Assembly (NCBI RefSeq): GCF_007830435.1
Contig: NZ_VLLC01000017.1
Span: forward strand, 1 to 64,000
Direction: 5' to 3'
Length of the DNA: 64,000 nt
Source of the DNA: Desulfobotulus alkaliphilus
GTDB taxonomy: Bacteria; Desulfobacterota; Desulfobacteria; Desulfobacterales; ASO4-4
Positions 8,363-61,814 of this stretch are shown here, piece after piece (the first letter of the stretch is position 1; every line of letters begins with the position of its first letter). Under the pieces are notes generated by a model. That model searched no databases. It was not told the origin of the DNA and was given only the letters and a program-made list of their open reading frames with translations. The position numbers and the translations under genes were made by a program.

Positions 8363-8708
8363 GTAAGTATTCAGCACAGTTTTCCAAGCACCATAGCTGC
8401 AAGACAGATGCACAGGCCCCAGGCTATTTGCCCGTGACGCAATCTTATTCGGGAGCTTCTTGCCCTGTGCGGAAGCGGCAAAAACTCCCCGCCACAGGCA
8501 GGATAAGCGTTTTGATTACCATAGCAGGCTTAAGCACGCTGCCTTTGTGGCGGCTCAGACAGTTTGCCGCTTCTTTCGCACAGGCCTGCAAAGCTCTGAT
8601 CCGAAACGATTGCAATGTCACTTGCAAATAGCCACGGAGCCTTGCAACAGTACGAAGCTGCTGTAACTGCAGCATTGGCAGTTCGGAATTACTGTGCTGA
8701 ATAATTAC
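8363..8708 (+). mobile_element. R1 MITE, copy A (full length, 346 bp)
   Basis: The element starts GTAAGTATTCAGCACAGT and ends in its near inverted repeat ACTGTGCTGAATAATTAC. Flanking octamers are ACAATGAG (8355-8362) and ACAAAGAG (8709-8716), a 7/8 match that fits a target-site duplication. The two halves are imperfectly complementary over most of the length, so a transcript would fold into one long hairpin. It carries no credible gene. Its right end is 16 bases beyond the stop codon of the Smr gene, and 8155-8362 beside it holds nothing recognisable. Confidence 0.85.
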
Positions 8709-10258: not shown

Positions 10259-11371
10259 ATGTATCATAAAAACAAGAATGAAAACCCGCCTGCCCTGCGC
10301 AAAATCATCCATGTGGATATGGACGCCTTTTATGCTGCCATTGAACAGCGGGACAATCCGGTGCTGAAAGGTCGTCCCGTCATCGTGGGCGGCAACCCCA
10401 AAGGCCGTGGGGTTGTGGCCACATGCAGCTATGAGGCCAGAAAATTCGGCATTCATTCGGCCATGTCTGCGGCGCAGGCCATAAGAAAATGCCCCCATGC
10501 CGTTTTTATCCGCCCGAGAAAAGAGGTGTACGCCGCCGTTTCCAGACAGATTTTTGCCATATGCCAGAAATTTTCCAACTGCATTGAACCCCTTTCCCTG
10601 GACGAGGCCTTCCTTGATGTCAGTGAGGATATCCTGAACCTTGGCTCTGCCACCCGGACAGCAGAAAAACTTCTGGAAACAATCCATAAACATACGGGGC
10701 TGACCGCTTCCGCAGGTGTTTCCTTTAACAAATTTCTGGCCAAGGTGGCCTCGGACATCCGTAAACCCGCAGGCCTCACCGTCATCCGGCCCGAAGACGC
10801 CCCGGCCTTTCTGGAAAAGCTTCCGGTACGAAAATTCTTTGGCGTGGGTAAAACAACGGAAAAAAAGATGCACAGCCACAATCTTTTTACGGGTGAAGAT
10901 ATCAAAGCCATGGGCGAAGAAAAACTGAAAAACCTTTTCGGTAAGGCAGGAAAGGAATTTTATGCCTTTGCCATGGGCCGGGATGACCGGCCTGTCATGG
11001 CGCAGAGAAGCAGAAAGTCCATAGGAAGGGAAGTCACCCTGGAGAGGGATATCCGGGACACAGGGGCCATGCTTGCCATTCTAAAAACTCTGGCGGAAGA
11101 TGTGGAGGCCAGTCTTGTCCGGAAAAAACACGCCGGTCACACCCTCACGCTGAAGGTAAAGTATCCGGATTTCCGCAGCGCCACCCGTTCCATGAGCTTT
11201 CCCTGCCCCCTGTGGCGTGCGGAAGACATGATGGAAAAAATGCCGGAACTTCTGGCCCGTACCGAAGCCGGAGAAAAAGCCGTCCGTCTCCTTGGCCTTG
11301 CCATATCCCAGTTCCCGGATACGGAACAGACAAAGGGACAGATGCTTCTTCCCTTTGTATTCCATAAGTAA
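10259..11371 (+). CDS. dinB: DNA polymerase IV (DinB), C-terminus altered by R1 insertion
   Basis: This Y-family translesion polymerase copies damaged templates. Catalytic motifs are VDMDAFYAAIEQRDNP, with the first metal-binding Asp, and SLDEAFLDV with the Asp-Glu pair. Thumb and little-finger regions follow to about residue 345. The end GQMLLPF fits the beta-clamp binding consensus QxxLxF. No clear ribosome site precedes the ATG, but no internal Met fits the family better. The stop TAA is supplied by the first four bases (GTAA) of R1 copy B. If the insertion and one 8-bp duplicate are removed, the frame would continue for nine more residues to a stop at 11583. Confidence 0.92.
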   Translation: MYHKNKNENPPALRKIIHVDMDAFYAAIEQRDNPVLKGRPVIVGGNPKGRGVVATCSYEARKFGIHSAMSAAQAIRKCPHAVFIRPRKEVYAAVSRQIFAICQKFSNCIEPLSLDEAFLDVSEDILNLGSATRTAEKLLETIHKHTGLTASAGVSFNKFLAKVASDIRKPAGLTVIRPEDAPAFLEKLPVRKFFGVGKTTEKKMHSHNLFTGEDIKAMGEEKLKNLFGKAGKEFYAFAMGRDDRPVMAQRSRKSIGREVTLERDIRDTGAMLAILKTLAEDVEASLVRKKHAGHTLTLKVKYPDFRSATRSMSFPCPLWRAEDMMEKMPELLARTEAGEKAVRLLGLAISQFPDTEQTKGQMLLPFVFHK

Positions 11372-11546
11372 CTGTTCAACACTATTTTCCAGGTACCATA
11401 CCTGCAAGGCAGATGCACAGGCCTGCAAAGCTCTGATCCGAAACGATTGCAATGTCACTTGCAAATAGCCACGGAGCCTTGCAACACTACGAAGCTGCTG
11501 CAATTACAGTATTGGCAGTTCGGAATAAACCGTGCTGAATAATTCC
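11368..11546 (+). mobile_element. R1 MITE, copy B (internally deleted, 179 bp)
   Basis: Both R1 ends are present and are flanked by a perfect 8-bp duplication, TTCCATAA at 11360-11367 and 11547-11554. Compared with copy A the middle 168 bases are missing; the junction lies at a GCACAGGCC that occurs twice in copy A (8410 and 8578), so deletion by recombination between short direct repeats is likely. Confidence 0.9.
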
Positions 11547-11588
11547 TTCCATAAGACCCCGGAAAACCTCTTTACCAGAAGGTAAACC

Positions 11589-12401
11589 CTACGGCCTTTC
11601 CAGCACAATTTCTCCGGGCTGTTCCCAGGCTGAGGCATAAAAACCCGCCACCTGCCACTTTTCGTGCAGCTTTTCCAGCTCACCGGATGCCAGCAGACGG
11701 GCCATACCCCTATCAAAAAGATCCATCAGCTCCAAGGAAGAAGGCTTGTCCGAAAAGGCCAGATAGGCCTTCTGCCCCCAGAGGGGAGCAACACGGTAAA
11801 CCAGCGTATCCACCATGTGCGTATCCACATAACGGTCCACATCGATGCGGGAGTCAATGAAGGCATCCACCCGGTCTGCGGCCAGCAGACGCCAGGGATT
11901 GCCATCATGGGGAATTTCCATCCTGTGCATGACAATACCCTTGAGGGGATTTCTTAAATGGTAATCATAGCCCCTGAACCAGACAACGGAACGTCCCCGA
12001 AGGGAATTCTGCCCCTTCCAGTCCGGAAAACGCTCCCTTTTAAACACGGCCACGGTGTATTCAATATAAAGGGGCAGAGCCGGAACCCTGAGACCTGCGG
12101 CATCGGCATCCTCTCTCCATACACTGGGCATGGCATCGGCATGGGCATTTTTCACAAGGTTCAGGGAGCGGTTCCAGTTGGCAAACTCCCATGACACCTT
12201 CACGCCTTCGGGTTCATATATTTTTTTTAAAATTTCAAAGAAAAACCCCGTACCATCGGCATGGGTCTGCCCTGCCCACTCCGGCGTGGCAATGTGAATC
12301 ACCGAAGAAAAATCATCAGCCCTTGCCTTAAAAGACAGAGAAAGTAAAACCGCAGACAGCAAAAAAAGGATGCACCGGAACACATGTTTTTTTTCACTCA
12401 T
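11589..12401 (-). CDS. Periplasmic solute-binding protein, family 3
   Basis: A cleavable signal peptide (about residues 1-28, hydrophobic core ILFLLSAVLLSLSF, then ARADD) precedes a family-3 solute-binding fold of about 240 residues. The family binds amino acids or other small polar ligands and delivers them to ABC transporters or receptors. The start at 12401 has GGGGAGGATGGGG before it; the longer frame is less likely. No permease or ATPase is nearby, so the protein may serve a receptor or an unlinked transporter. Its ATG overlaps the end of the YcgN-like gene by 8 bases, so the two are translated together. The ligand is unknown. Confidence 0.8.
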   Translation of the reverse strand: MSEKKHVFRCILFLLSAVLLSLSFKARADDFSSVIHIATPEWAGQTHADGTGFFFEILKKIYEPEGVKVSWEFANWNRSLNLVKNAHADAMPSVWREDADAAGLRVPALPLYIEYTVAVFKRERFPDWKGQNSLRGRSVVWFRGYDYHLRNPLKGIVMHRMEIPHDGNPWRLLAADRVDAFIDSRIDVDRYVDTHMVDTLVYRVAPLWGQKAYLAFSDKPSSLELMDLFDRGMARLLASGELEKLHEKWQVAGFYASAWEQPGEIVLERP

Positions 12402-12876
12402 CCCCATCCTCCCCAAGAAGCCGGACCTCAGAACCATCCGCCCCCCCAAAAGAAATCAGATGGGCTTCCAGATCCAGGGCATAAAGATCCATCTCCCTGA
12501 CGGAAAAGGCCCAGTCTCCAACGCCAATACCCGGAGGCAGCTTTGTGTGCGGATTCTGCAGAAGGGGATGCCAGAAAGGCAGATCCCGCCCCTCATGCAG
12601 ACAGCGGTAGGCACAGCTTGGGGGCAGCCAGTCCGGGTGATTTTTCAGGCAGTCACAGATGGCAAGGCATTCGGCTTTGCTGCTGAAGCGTTCGGCATAA
12701 ATCCGGCACCTGCCCGATTCAAGGTCCAAAAACTCACAGGCCAGCCGGGTATAATATATACGGTTTGTCTCCTCTTCCTCCATTTTCACAAGGCAGCACC
12801 TCCCGCAGCCATCACAGAGGGACTCCCATTCCTCCCTGCTCATCTCTTCCAGCTTTTTCCTTTTCCAGAAATCCAT
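12394..12876 (-). CDS. YcgN/UPF0260 (YkgJ-type) cysteine-cluster protein
   Basis: The 160-residue protein matches the YcgN family throughout. It has CDGCGRCCLVKME near the N-terminus, CEFLDLESGRCRIY, then CLAICDCL and a tail with PPSCAYRCLHEGRDLPFWHPL. The conserved Cys residues probably bind a metal or an iron-sulfur cluster. The biological role of the family is not known. The ribosome site GGGAGACCCC precedes the ATG. It is the first gene of a two-gene unit with the solute-binding protein and is divergent from the diguanylate cyclase. Confidence 0.85.
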   Translation of the reverse strand: MDFWKRKKLEEMSREEWESLCDGCGRCCLVKMEEEETNRIYYTRLACEFLDLESGRCRIYAERFSSKAECLAICDCLKNHPDWLPPSCAYRCLHEGRDLPFWHPLLQNPHTKLPPGIGVGDWAFSVREMDLYALDLEAHLISFGGADGSEVRLLGEDGDE

Positions 12877-18907: not shown

Positions 18908-18973
18908 GAGAATATACTCCCGGAAAACGGTTGTTCTGATCAGAAGAAGCCCTGCTCCTGCAAAACATTTTTA

Positions 18974-19298
18974 GTAATTATTCAGAACATTTTATCTTGA
19001 AAAATTGTTCATTAACTTCAGAATTTTGGTTCCAGACAAAGGCAATCGGGCTGTTTGTGAGTGACATTGCAATCGTTTCGGATCAGAGCGTCGCAGACCT
19101 GTGCGAAAGAAGCGGCAAACTGTCTGAGCCGCCACAAAGGCAGCGTACCAAGGTCTGCCATGGTAATCAAAAAGCTTATCCTGCCTGTGGCGGGGAGTTT
19201 TTGCCGCTTCCGCACAGGGCAAGAAGCTCCCGAATAAGATTGCGTCACGAACAAATGGCTCGGTTGTCTATACACCTGATTGAAAGTATTCAATTTGT
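18974..19298 (-). mobile_element. R1 MITE, copy C (diverged outer arms)
   Basis: The core 19062-19250 is nearly identical to the other copies, read in the opposite direction to copy A. The left end starts GTAATTATTCAG, but the outer arms differ from copy A, while left and right arms still resemble each other (GACAA...GTGAC), which suggests a distinct sub-family. The right boundary is approximate and no target duplication was found. It sits between the outer-membrane channel and adaptor genes of one operon. Confidence 0.7.
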
Positions 19299-19312
19299 CA
19301 AAGACAGACTTA

Positions 19313-19344
19313 AAGGCCCGCCCTGCGAAAGATTTTTACGGTAA
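19313..19344 (+). repeat. R2 fragment at the end of the channel gene (R2d)
   Basis: The bases AAGGCCCGCCCTGCGAAAG and the following TTTTTACGG resemble the inner part of R2 copy a near 21690. The fragment covers the stop codon of the outer-membrane channel gene, so its last residues may come from the repeat. Confidence 0.45.
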
Positions 19345-21609: not shown

Positions 21610-21757
21610 TCTGATTACCACCCTGAGCTTATCCGCCCGTTGGCAGGCCCATGGTGCGCACTTTCATTCGGGCAGGTTTGAAGGCCTGCCCTGCGAAGGG
21701 TTTTTAGGTCCCTGTTTTAAGGGGCATCCCTTACAGGTGCCCGATTAACGGTGACGG
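21610..21757 (+). repeat. R2 repeat, copy a (right end missing)
   Basis: It starts with TCTGATTACCACCCTGAG, the R2 left end, and contains the inner hairpins CAGG...CCTG and GGGGCATCCC-TTACAGGTGCCC. The R2 right end is not found; the similarity ends before the sigma-54 activator stop at 21775. Confidence 0.65.
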
Positions 21758-40237: not shown

Positions 40238-40392
40238 TTATCCTCTCCATTCAATACCTGCAAACCATCCAAAATAAAAACGTAACTGTTCAGCACAGTT
40301 TATTTTGAACTGTCAATGCTGTAATTACAGCAGCTTCGTACTGTTGCAAGGCTCCGTGGCTATTTGCAAGTGACATTGCAATCGTTTCGGAT

Positions 40393-40463
40393 TCCGGCAC
40401 TCAAGCTCTAAAACCAAAGCTCATCATGTAAACGACGCAGCCTTTTCAGGCTTGAGTGCCGGA
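40393..40463. repeat. 71-bp hairpin module, D1
   Basis: Perfect 13-base inverted ends TCCGGCACTCAAG and CTTGAGTGCCGGA enclose a 45-base loop that contains GCAGCCTTTTCAGG, shared with module E1 at 43187. It lies in the left arm of R1 copy D. Confidence 0.85.
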
Positions 40464-40599
40464 GTGCTAATAAGAAGCGGCAAACTGCCTGACCCGCCAC
40501 AAAGGCAACGTACCAAGGCCTGATATTGTAATCAAAAAGCTTATCCTGCCTGTGGCGGGGAGGTTTTGCCGCTTCCCCACAGGGCAAGAAACTCCCGAA

Positions 40600-40670
40600 T
40601 CCGGCACTCAAGATCCATAGGCATTTCTGCTCCCGTAAAGGGGCTTGCGTTTTTTAGCTTGAGTGCCGGA
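40600..40670. repeat. 71-bp hairpin module, D2
   Basis: Same 13-base ends and exactly the same length as D1, but the loop is of a second type (ATCC...GCTCCCGTAAAGGGG), shared with module E2 at 43394. It lies in the right arm of R1 copy D. Confidence 0.85.
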
Positions 40671-40764
40671 TTGCGTCACAGGCAAATAGCCTGGGGCCTG
40701 TGCGTCTGTCTTGCAGCTATGGTACCTGGAAAACTGTGCTGAATAATTATATAAAAACAAGCTC

Positions 40765-41570: not shown

Positions 41571-41700
41571 TCTGATTACTAGCCTGACTCAGCCACAGCT
41601 TGCTGATCAGGTTGTTGCCAGACCTATGGTGCGGGCTTTTAATACGGGCAGGCGCAAGGCCTGCCCCTAAGAATGGTTTTTACGGTATCATTGAAATCTG
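41571..41700 (+). repeat. R2 repeat, copy b (right end missing)
   Basis: TCTGATTACTAGCCTGACTC opens the copy, and the inner GGGCAGGCGCAAGGCCTGCCC hairpin is intact. The sequence resembles R2c until about 41700, just before the stop codon of the ArsA-like gene. No flanking duplication can be assigned. Confidence 0.7.
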
Positions 41701-42875: not shown

Positions 42876-43186
42876 GCAAAACTCCTCTCTTTCCAGCAGA
42901 AATCCGAAAATCCGTCAACATAAGGATATAAGTAAAATCAAAATTGACAATACGCTTCAAAAAAACTAAGGTCAACGGGTTATCTTATGATTCCGCCGGA
43001 CACTTGACGTTTTCTGTTTTAAAACTTAAAAACAAGACGCTGTTTTTAAAAACAAAAAAACACTGTAATTATTCAGCATAGTTTATTCCGAACTGCCAAT
43101 GCTAAAATTGCAGCAGATTCGTACTTTATGCAAGGCTCCGTGGCTATTTGCAAGTGACATTGCAATCGTTTCGGATCAGAGTTTTG

Positions 43187-43257
43187 TCCGGCACTCAAGC
43201 CAAAAATCCAAAGACTATAATGCAAACGATGCAGCCTTTTCAGGCTTGAGTGCCGGA
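43187..43257. repeat. 71-bp hairpin module, E1
   Basis: Same perfect 13-base inverted ends as D1 and D2; the loop shares GCAGCCTTTTCAGG with D1. Exactly 71 bases. Confidence 0.85.
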
Positions 43258-43393
43258 GTGCTCATAAGAAGCGGCAAACTGTCTGAGCCGCCACAAAGGC
43301 AGTGTGCTTAAGCCTGCCATGGTAATAAAAAAGCTTATCCTGCCTGTGGCGGGGAGTTTTTGCCGCTTCCGCACAGGGCAAGAAGCTCCCGAA

Positions 43394-43464
43394 TCCGGCA
43401 CTCAAGATCCTTGAAGCACTTTTGCTCCTGTAAAGGGCTTGAGCTTTTCAGCTTGAGTGCCGGA
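43394..43464. repeat. 71-bp hairpin module, E2
   Basis: Same ends and length; the loop (ATCCTTGAAGC...GCTCCTGTAAAGGG) is related to D2. Confidence 0.85.
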
Positions 43465-43540
43465 TTGCGTCACGGGCAAATAGCCGGGGCCTGTGCATCT
43501 GTCTGGCAGCTATGGTACTTGGAAAGCTATGCTGAACAGC

Positions 43541-61207: not shown

Positions 61208-61432
61208 TCTGATTACTACCCTGACTCAGCCACAGCCTGCTGGTCAGATTGTGGTCAGGCCCATGGTGAGAGCTTTCATACGGGCAGGCGCAAGGCCTGC
61301 CCCTGCGAATGTTTTTTACGGCCCCTGTTTTGTAGGGGCACCCTTTACGGGTGCCCGTCAACAATCATAAAATCTGGTCATGTCATTTCCATGGCTTAAA
61401 GTTCCTATGGCTGAAAGACAGTGGTAATCAGA
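61208..61432 (+). mobile_element. R2 element, copy c (complete, 225 bp)
   Basis: The ends TCTGATTACTACCCTGACTC and the complement of TCTGATTACCACTGTC form inverted repeats of at least nine perfect bases, and the element is flanked on both sides by AAAGAAAA (61200-61207 and 61433-61440), a perfect 8-bp duplication although of low complexity. Inner hairpins are GGGCAGGC-GCAA-GGCCTGCCC and GGGGCACCC-TTTAC-GGGTGCCC. No gene inside; it behaves like a small non-autonomous transposon. Confidence 0.75.
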
Positions 61433-61504: not shown

Positions 61505-61814
61505 GTAACTGTTCAGCACAGTTTTCCAAGTACCATAGCTGCAAGACAGACGCACAGGCCCCAGGCTATTTGCCCATGACGCAATCTTATTCGGGAGCTT
61601 CTTGGCCTGTGCGGAAGCGGCAAAAACTCCCCGCCACAGGCAGAATAAGCTTTTTGATTACCAAAGCAGACCTTGGTACGCTGCCTTTGTGGCGGCTCAG
61701 ACAGTTTGCCGCTTCTTTCGCACAGGCCTGCGAAACTCTGATCCGAAACGATTGCAATGTCACTTGCAAATAGCCACGGAGCCTTGCAACAGTACGAAGC
61801 TGCTGAATAATTAC
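61505..61814 (+). mobile_element. R1 MITE, copy F (310 bp)
   Basis: GTAACTGTTCAGCACAGT starts the element and GCTGAATAATTAC ends it; the flanking octamers are ATTTTTTT at 61497-61504 and 61815-61822, a perfect match. Compared with copy A, 36 bases near the right end are missing. The right duplicate overlaps the first two bases of the dnaK stop codon (TTA), without changing the protein. Confidence 0.9.

Follow-up and report, generated by a model that had tools for sequence, protein, structure and literature searches.

MITEs at the 3′ ends of bacterial genes are already known from Coxiella burnetii. QMITE1 and QMITE2 are described there as reaching into functional genes such as ubiB, mutT, recN and ruvB from the 3′ side, with overlaps that range from a few bases to about 50 bp, and as extending one gene, enhC, in frame (PMC5896051). 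In Cardinium, MITECca01 is present at 169 copies in one genome; it is mostly intergenic and lineage-specific, and derives from an IS982-family element whose intact parents are still present (PMC9769881). Members of the IS66 family have ends that start with GTAA and produce 8-bp repeats (PMC11946415).

Here we describe R1, a repeat that lies in the 3′ end of dinB in Desulfobotulus alkaliphilus, within a 64,000-nucleotide stretch of DNA that was analysed as a whole (the window). R1 and the QMITEs are both bacterial MITEs at 3′ gene ends; the elements are unrelated, and the R1 in dinB gives a clean stop that could be checked against a congener with an empty site, whereas the QMITE cases described are overlaps and the enhC extension. 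R1 resembles MITECca01 in being many-copy, mostly intergenic and lineage-specific, but differs in that no intact parent was found alongside it. What could be new is a phase bias that links the survival of insertions to the stop codon in the R1 tip.

The insertion at the 3′ end of dinB

The polymerase encoded by dinB is a complete Y-family enzyme with IMS catalytic, IMS_HHH and IMS_C little-finger domains (Pfam), and its homologues of solved structure (PDB) are named DNA polymerase IV. The clamp motif of E. coli DNA polymerase IV (DinB) is near the C-terminus. The polymerase domains are common to both proteins; in the DinB studied here, the putative clamp motif QMLLPF is followed by four residues, VFHK, and then the C-terminus. 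The features of the locus, and the other R1 copies in the window with both ends and a target duplication, are listed in Table 1.

Table 1. Position of dinB, its inserted R1 copy and further R1 copies in the window
Feature	Position	Strand	Size or sequence	Basis and remarks
dinB (DNA polymerase IV), current reading	10259..11371	+	370 aa	ORF; Pfam IMS, IMS_HHH, IMS_C
QMLLPF, putative sliding-clamp-binding motif	11339..11356	+	QMLLPF	Q invariant in 11 homologues, hydrophobic pattern retained
Target duplication, left copy	11360..11367	+	TTCCATAA	8/8 bases identical to right copy
R1 copy B, short form of IS66-like MITE	11368..11546	+	179 bp	Inverted ends, target duplication; related copies genome-wide
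dinB stop codon	11369..11371	+	TAA	From GTAA tip of R1 (11368–11371)
Right inverted end of R1 copy B	11527..11546	-	GGAATTATTCAGCACGGTTT (minus strand)	Starts GGAA, where GTAA is usual
Target duplication, right copy	11547..11554	+	TTCCATAA	8/8 bases identical to left copy
Stranded former dinB 3′ end	11555..11585	+	K370 last base, TPENLFTRR, old stop 11583–11585	Joined flanks; empty site in G002
Convergent neighbour, solute-binding protein (SBP_bac_3)	11589..12449	-		Intact; flank alignable in G001 and G002
R1 copy A, long form	8363..8708	+	346 bp	Target duplication ACAATGAG/ACAAAGAG
R1 copy	40282..40750	-	469 bp	Target duplication ATAAAAAC
R1 copy	61505..61814	+	310 bp	Target duplication ATTTTTTT

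The original prediction placed the dinB stop within the GTAA end of copy B and held that removing the insertion together with one copy of the duplication would restore the frame. Base-level inspection and joining of the flanks in silico bore out both points: deleting 11368–11554 gives a 379-residue DinB that ends in ...QMLLPFVFHKTPENLFTRR (...GQMLLPFVFHKTPENLFTRR, then the stop). K370 is encoded by AAG both before and after the insertion, because the first G of R1 replaces the original G. DinB has gone from 379 to 370 residues, with nine lost and no foreign residue gained, so its end is better described as ‘trimmed’ than as ‘rewritten’, the term first used, which is too strong. All coordinates of the range first given for the event (11360–11585) hold, with the element itself stopping at 11546 and the stranded coding tail at 11585. 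QMLLPF does lie just upstream of the insertion and is retained, as had been stated. Before the insertion, the gap between dinB and the convergent SBP_bac_3 gene was 3 bp.

The insertion site is empty in both congeners. The sister species (G002) has a DinB with 86% identity over 370 residues; it ends in ...QMLLPFIFHKTTDCTPNKG (HK-TTDCTPNKG), nine residues past the K, with a stop that is at the matching position and adjoins the same convergent gene. The DinB of the outgroup (G001) is 74% identical and ends in QLLLPFADNCPSGPF, nine residues past its motif. Because the site is empty in both species, the insertion is derived in the lineage of this genome; it is not fresh, since copy B has diverged at both ends. 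Relatives lacking the insertion were expected to carry the predicted tail. The G002 tail agrees in length and stop position but not in sequence, with one of nine residues identical to TPENLFTRR (the first T only), so that the alignment supports the prediction for position and length and not for sequence. In neither congener does an insertion-free orthologue end at the same place as this DinB.

The R1 family

The R1 repeats are dispersed, measure about 160–496 bp and have GTAAYTRTTCAGCACAGTTT as their inverted ends; they carry no transposase and leave no room for its gene. A 31-bp R1 core is present at 221 copies in this 4.0-Mb genome, 106 in G002 and 12 in G001; the reversed control pattern gave zero matches in the three congeners. 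Among 291 genomes of the order, the exact 17-bp R1 end occurs in three, all of this genus, and was not found in other genera. Loci were sampled around copies in the three species, and a copy was accepted if it had its two ends and if its 8-bp duplication showed no more than one mismatch. This gave 121 copies, 85 with perfect duplications and 36 with one mismatch. The duplications are not due to chance, because none of 602 offset control pairs came within one mismatch in 8 bp. Most sampled copies combine GTAA at both ends with the 8-bp duplication; in copy B, the left end reads GTAA and the right end GGAA.

Short length, inverted terminal repeats, target duplication, many dispersed copies and the lack of a transposase are all as in a MITE. 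The GTAA-starting ends and 8-bp target duplication are common to R1, the IS66 family and IS-derived MITEs, whereas an autonomous parent with R1 ends (GTAAYTRTTCAGCACAG) was not found in this genome, G001 or G002. Since no parent shares its ends, we call R1 IS66-like and do not file it as an IS66 member; we treat it as a MITE, and one whose sequence features look like those of an IS66-mobilised element. One IS66 transposase was found in this genome (contig C66), within perfect inverted ends GTAACTTCTCAATAAGTGTAGGCAT lacking a target duplication, and no IS66 transposase was detected in G001 or G002. The contig C66 element was considered as the R1 parent and rejected, as its ends depart from those of R1 beyond the first bases (inner ends GTAACTTCTCAATAAGTG, against TTCAGCACAG in R1).

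Copy B corresponds to copy A minus the 168 bp between two internal GCACAGGCC direct repeats. We considered whether copy B is a mere decayed remnant and rejected this in part, as R1 forms of 177–179 bp with perfect duplications of their own occur in G002 (L070 and L072). The short forms may also have arisen by repeated deletion between the internal repeats. There were no Rfam matches within the window, leaving an RNA function of R1 unsupported; the fold of copy B is not unusually stable (z −1.16) and no terminator-like site was found in it.

Other repeats were also seen. At 18973–19259 there is a diverged R1 copy in which only the left end (GTAATTATTCAGAACA) is recognisable and no target duplication was detected. 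Some R1 copies (43065–43539 in the window, L035, L038 and L042) end in GTTGCTGTTCAGC adjoining a repeated CGGCGTGG or CGACGTGG; in the window, this end is within a hairpin-like CACGCCGTGTTACGGCG followed by TTTT. Such copies may be part of a larger composite repeat that includes a terminator. A second dispersed family, an inverted repeat of the GGGCAGGCGCAAGGCCTGCCC type, is found at 19294–19341, 21662–21709, 41638–41685 and 61274–61321.

R1 at the ends of genes

Empty sites were rebuilt for all 121 R1 copies, with genes called by script using a codon-usage score trained on the window. The copies are mostly intergenic, and five cut a well-scoring gene at its 3′ end: dinB (−9 aa), a pseudouridine synthase (L056, −14 aa), a HEAT/response-regulator protein (L113, −1 aa), a histone-deacetylase-family protein (L158, −1 aa) and a sigma-54 activator (L049, length unchanged, last residue F to L). 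In every case, R1 entered in the xxG-TAA phase that produces an immediate stop, an outcome with a probability of 0.004 under equal phases in this small sample of scripted gene calls. One further 3′-end match (L033), in another phase, was left out; it is to a 45-aa ORF with a weak coding score (16). Seven hits at 5′ ends were left uninterpreted, the scripted start codons being uncertain. The empty sites in G002 match the predicted endings of L056 (...GRK) and L158 (...KKSL), each followed by a stop. In the other two phases, read-through into a typical R1 copy adds 6 to 89 residues, which suggests a reason for which insertions in those phases would be lost.

R1 copies between same-strand genes (n = 68) lie at a median of 17 bp from the upstream stop, compared with 64.5 bp from the downstream start. 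Where the gap was at least 20 bp (n = 63), the upstream stop was the nearer for 45 copies and the downstream start for 18, a difference with p 0.0009 in a sign test. For 15 of the 68 copies, the stop codon is in or touching the duplicated 8 bp (distances −9 to −2). To account for this clustering behind stops, selection against insertions that damage genes and promoters would be enough. A target preference of R1, whose duplicated sequence is 75% A+T, could also lie behind it.

A broader reading, which we put forward tentatively and think somewhat more likely wrong than right, is that the GTAA tips provide a ready stop, so that R1 is tolerated at gene ends: insertions within the last codons of genes would survive almost exclusively in the xxG-TAA phase, the others would gather behind or on stops, and R1 would act as a gene-ending cassette that has repeatedly trimmed C-termini across the genus. 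The phase bias could be new, and to claim it would first take all R1 copies and standard gene calls.

Three of the sites have features of their own. In the pseudouridine synthase (L056:764–1504, L237), R1 separates the stop from a formerly overlapping ATG; G002 and the rebuilt empty site both have the overlapping TAATG, and the insertion may have uncoupled translation of the synthase from that of the following gene. At the 3′ end of the histone-deacetylase-family gene (L158 in this genome, L240 in G001, L239 in G002), two species carry R1 at the same site, AAAAAATC, in opposite orientations, and the third is empty; one G001 copy of AAAAAATC has one base different. Either R1 hit the site twice independently, or an inversion and a loss took place. 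In L127 (element 1541–1801), R1 falls within the first few codons of a gene as called by script; the encoded protein starts like the alpha subunit of DNA polymerase III, and the real start may be downstream of R1.

Consequences for DinB and alternative explanations

Across an alignment of 11 homologues, the number of residues after the motif ranges from 0 (L006, which ends in QLLLPF) to 17 (L011) and these residues show no conservation; L004, L007, L009 and L010 have five or fewer. A structure model of the tailed G002 DinB is confident through the last strand (347–355), and the C-terminal 27 residues (360–386) have pLDDT below 50, with one residue excepted. This stretch includes the clamp motif, for which order is expected only in the bound state, so low pLDDT here would speak for flexibility, not uselessness. 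QMLLPF would, from its sequence, bind the sliding clamp, and the trimmed protein would be expected to work. The claim that its function is probably intact is well supported by alignment and model, because the Q of the motif is invariant, the region after the core is predicted to be disordered and one homologue ends at the motif.

The reading that we favour, with a probability of about 93%, is that a short-form R1 MITE entered dinB nine codons ahead of the original stop and trimmed the DinB tail beyond the clamp motif. The insertion, the duplication, the restored frame, the empty sites in two congeners and the matching tail length and stop in G002 were observed directly. As to mechanism, the genus-specific element, presumably mobilised in trans by an IS66-type transposase, duplicated TTCCATAA on entry; because the phase of its GTAA tip gives AAG TAA, translation now stops at once. 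DinB has lost nine non-conserved, probably disordered residues and gained none; clamp binding would be retained and the effect on fitness would be near-neutral.

Selection might instead have favoured the insertion, with the loss of the tail, or the 187 bp placed between convergent genes 3 bp apart, altering DinB activity or separating transcription. The spacing of the two stop codons beforehand and the gathering of R1 copies at gene 3′ ends fit such an adaptive insertion; however, copy B has neither a terminator-like site nor an unusually stable fold, the tail is not conserved in the congeners or the order, and selection against insertions inside genes explains the clustering equally, making adaptation improbable. 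It is very improbable that the lost tail matters, with truncation weakening or abolishing DinB function and the gene becoming a pseudogene: the motif is now only four residues from the C-terminus, but the frame is otherwise intact, the identity to G002 holds over all 370 residues, and L006 and the four other short-tailed homologues have little or nothing after the motif. That DinB always ended at VFHK, the open tail downstream being coincidence, scarcely deserves belief. The single residue shared with the G002 tail would be in keeping with it, yet the empty site is fixed by a perfect duplication, G001 extends nine residues past its motif, and G002 contradicts it outright, having the same frame, an equal tail length and a matching stop beside the same convergent gene.

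Trimming of the tail by R1 makes dinB a clean case, dated by relatives, of a repair polymerase whose end was reshaped by a non-autonomous element and which, from its sequence, appears not to have been broken. R1, which has about 221 core copies in this genome and can be compared across two related species, offers a natural experiment on dispensable C-termini, and on how the built-in TAA of its terminal sequence may decide which insertions survive.
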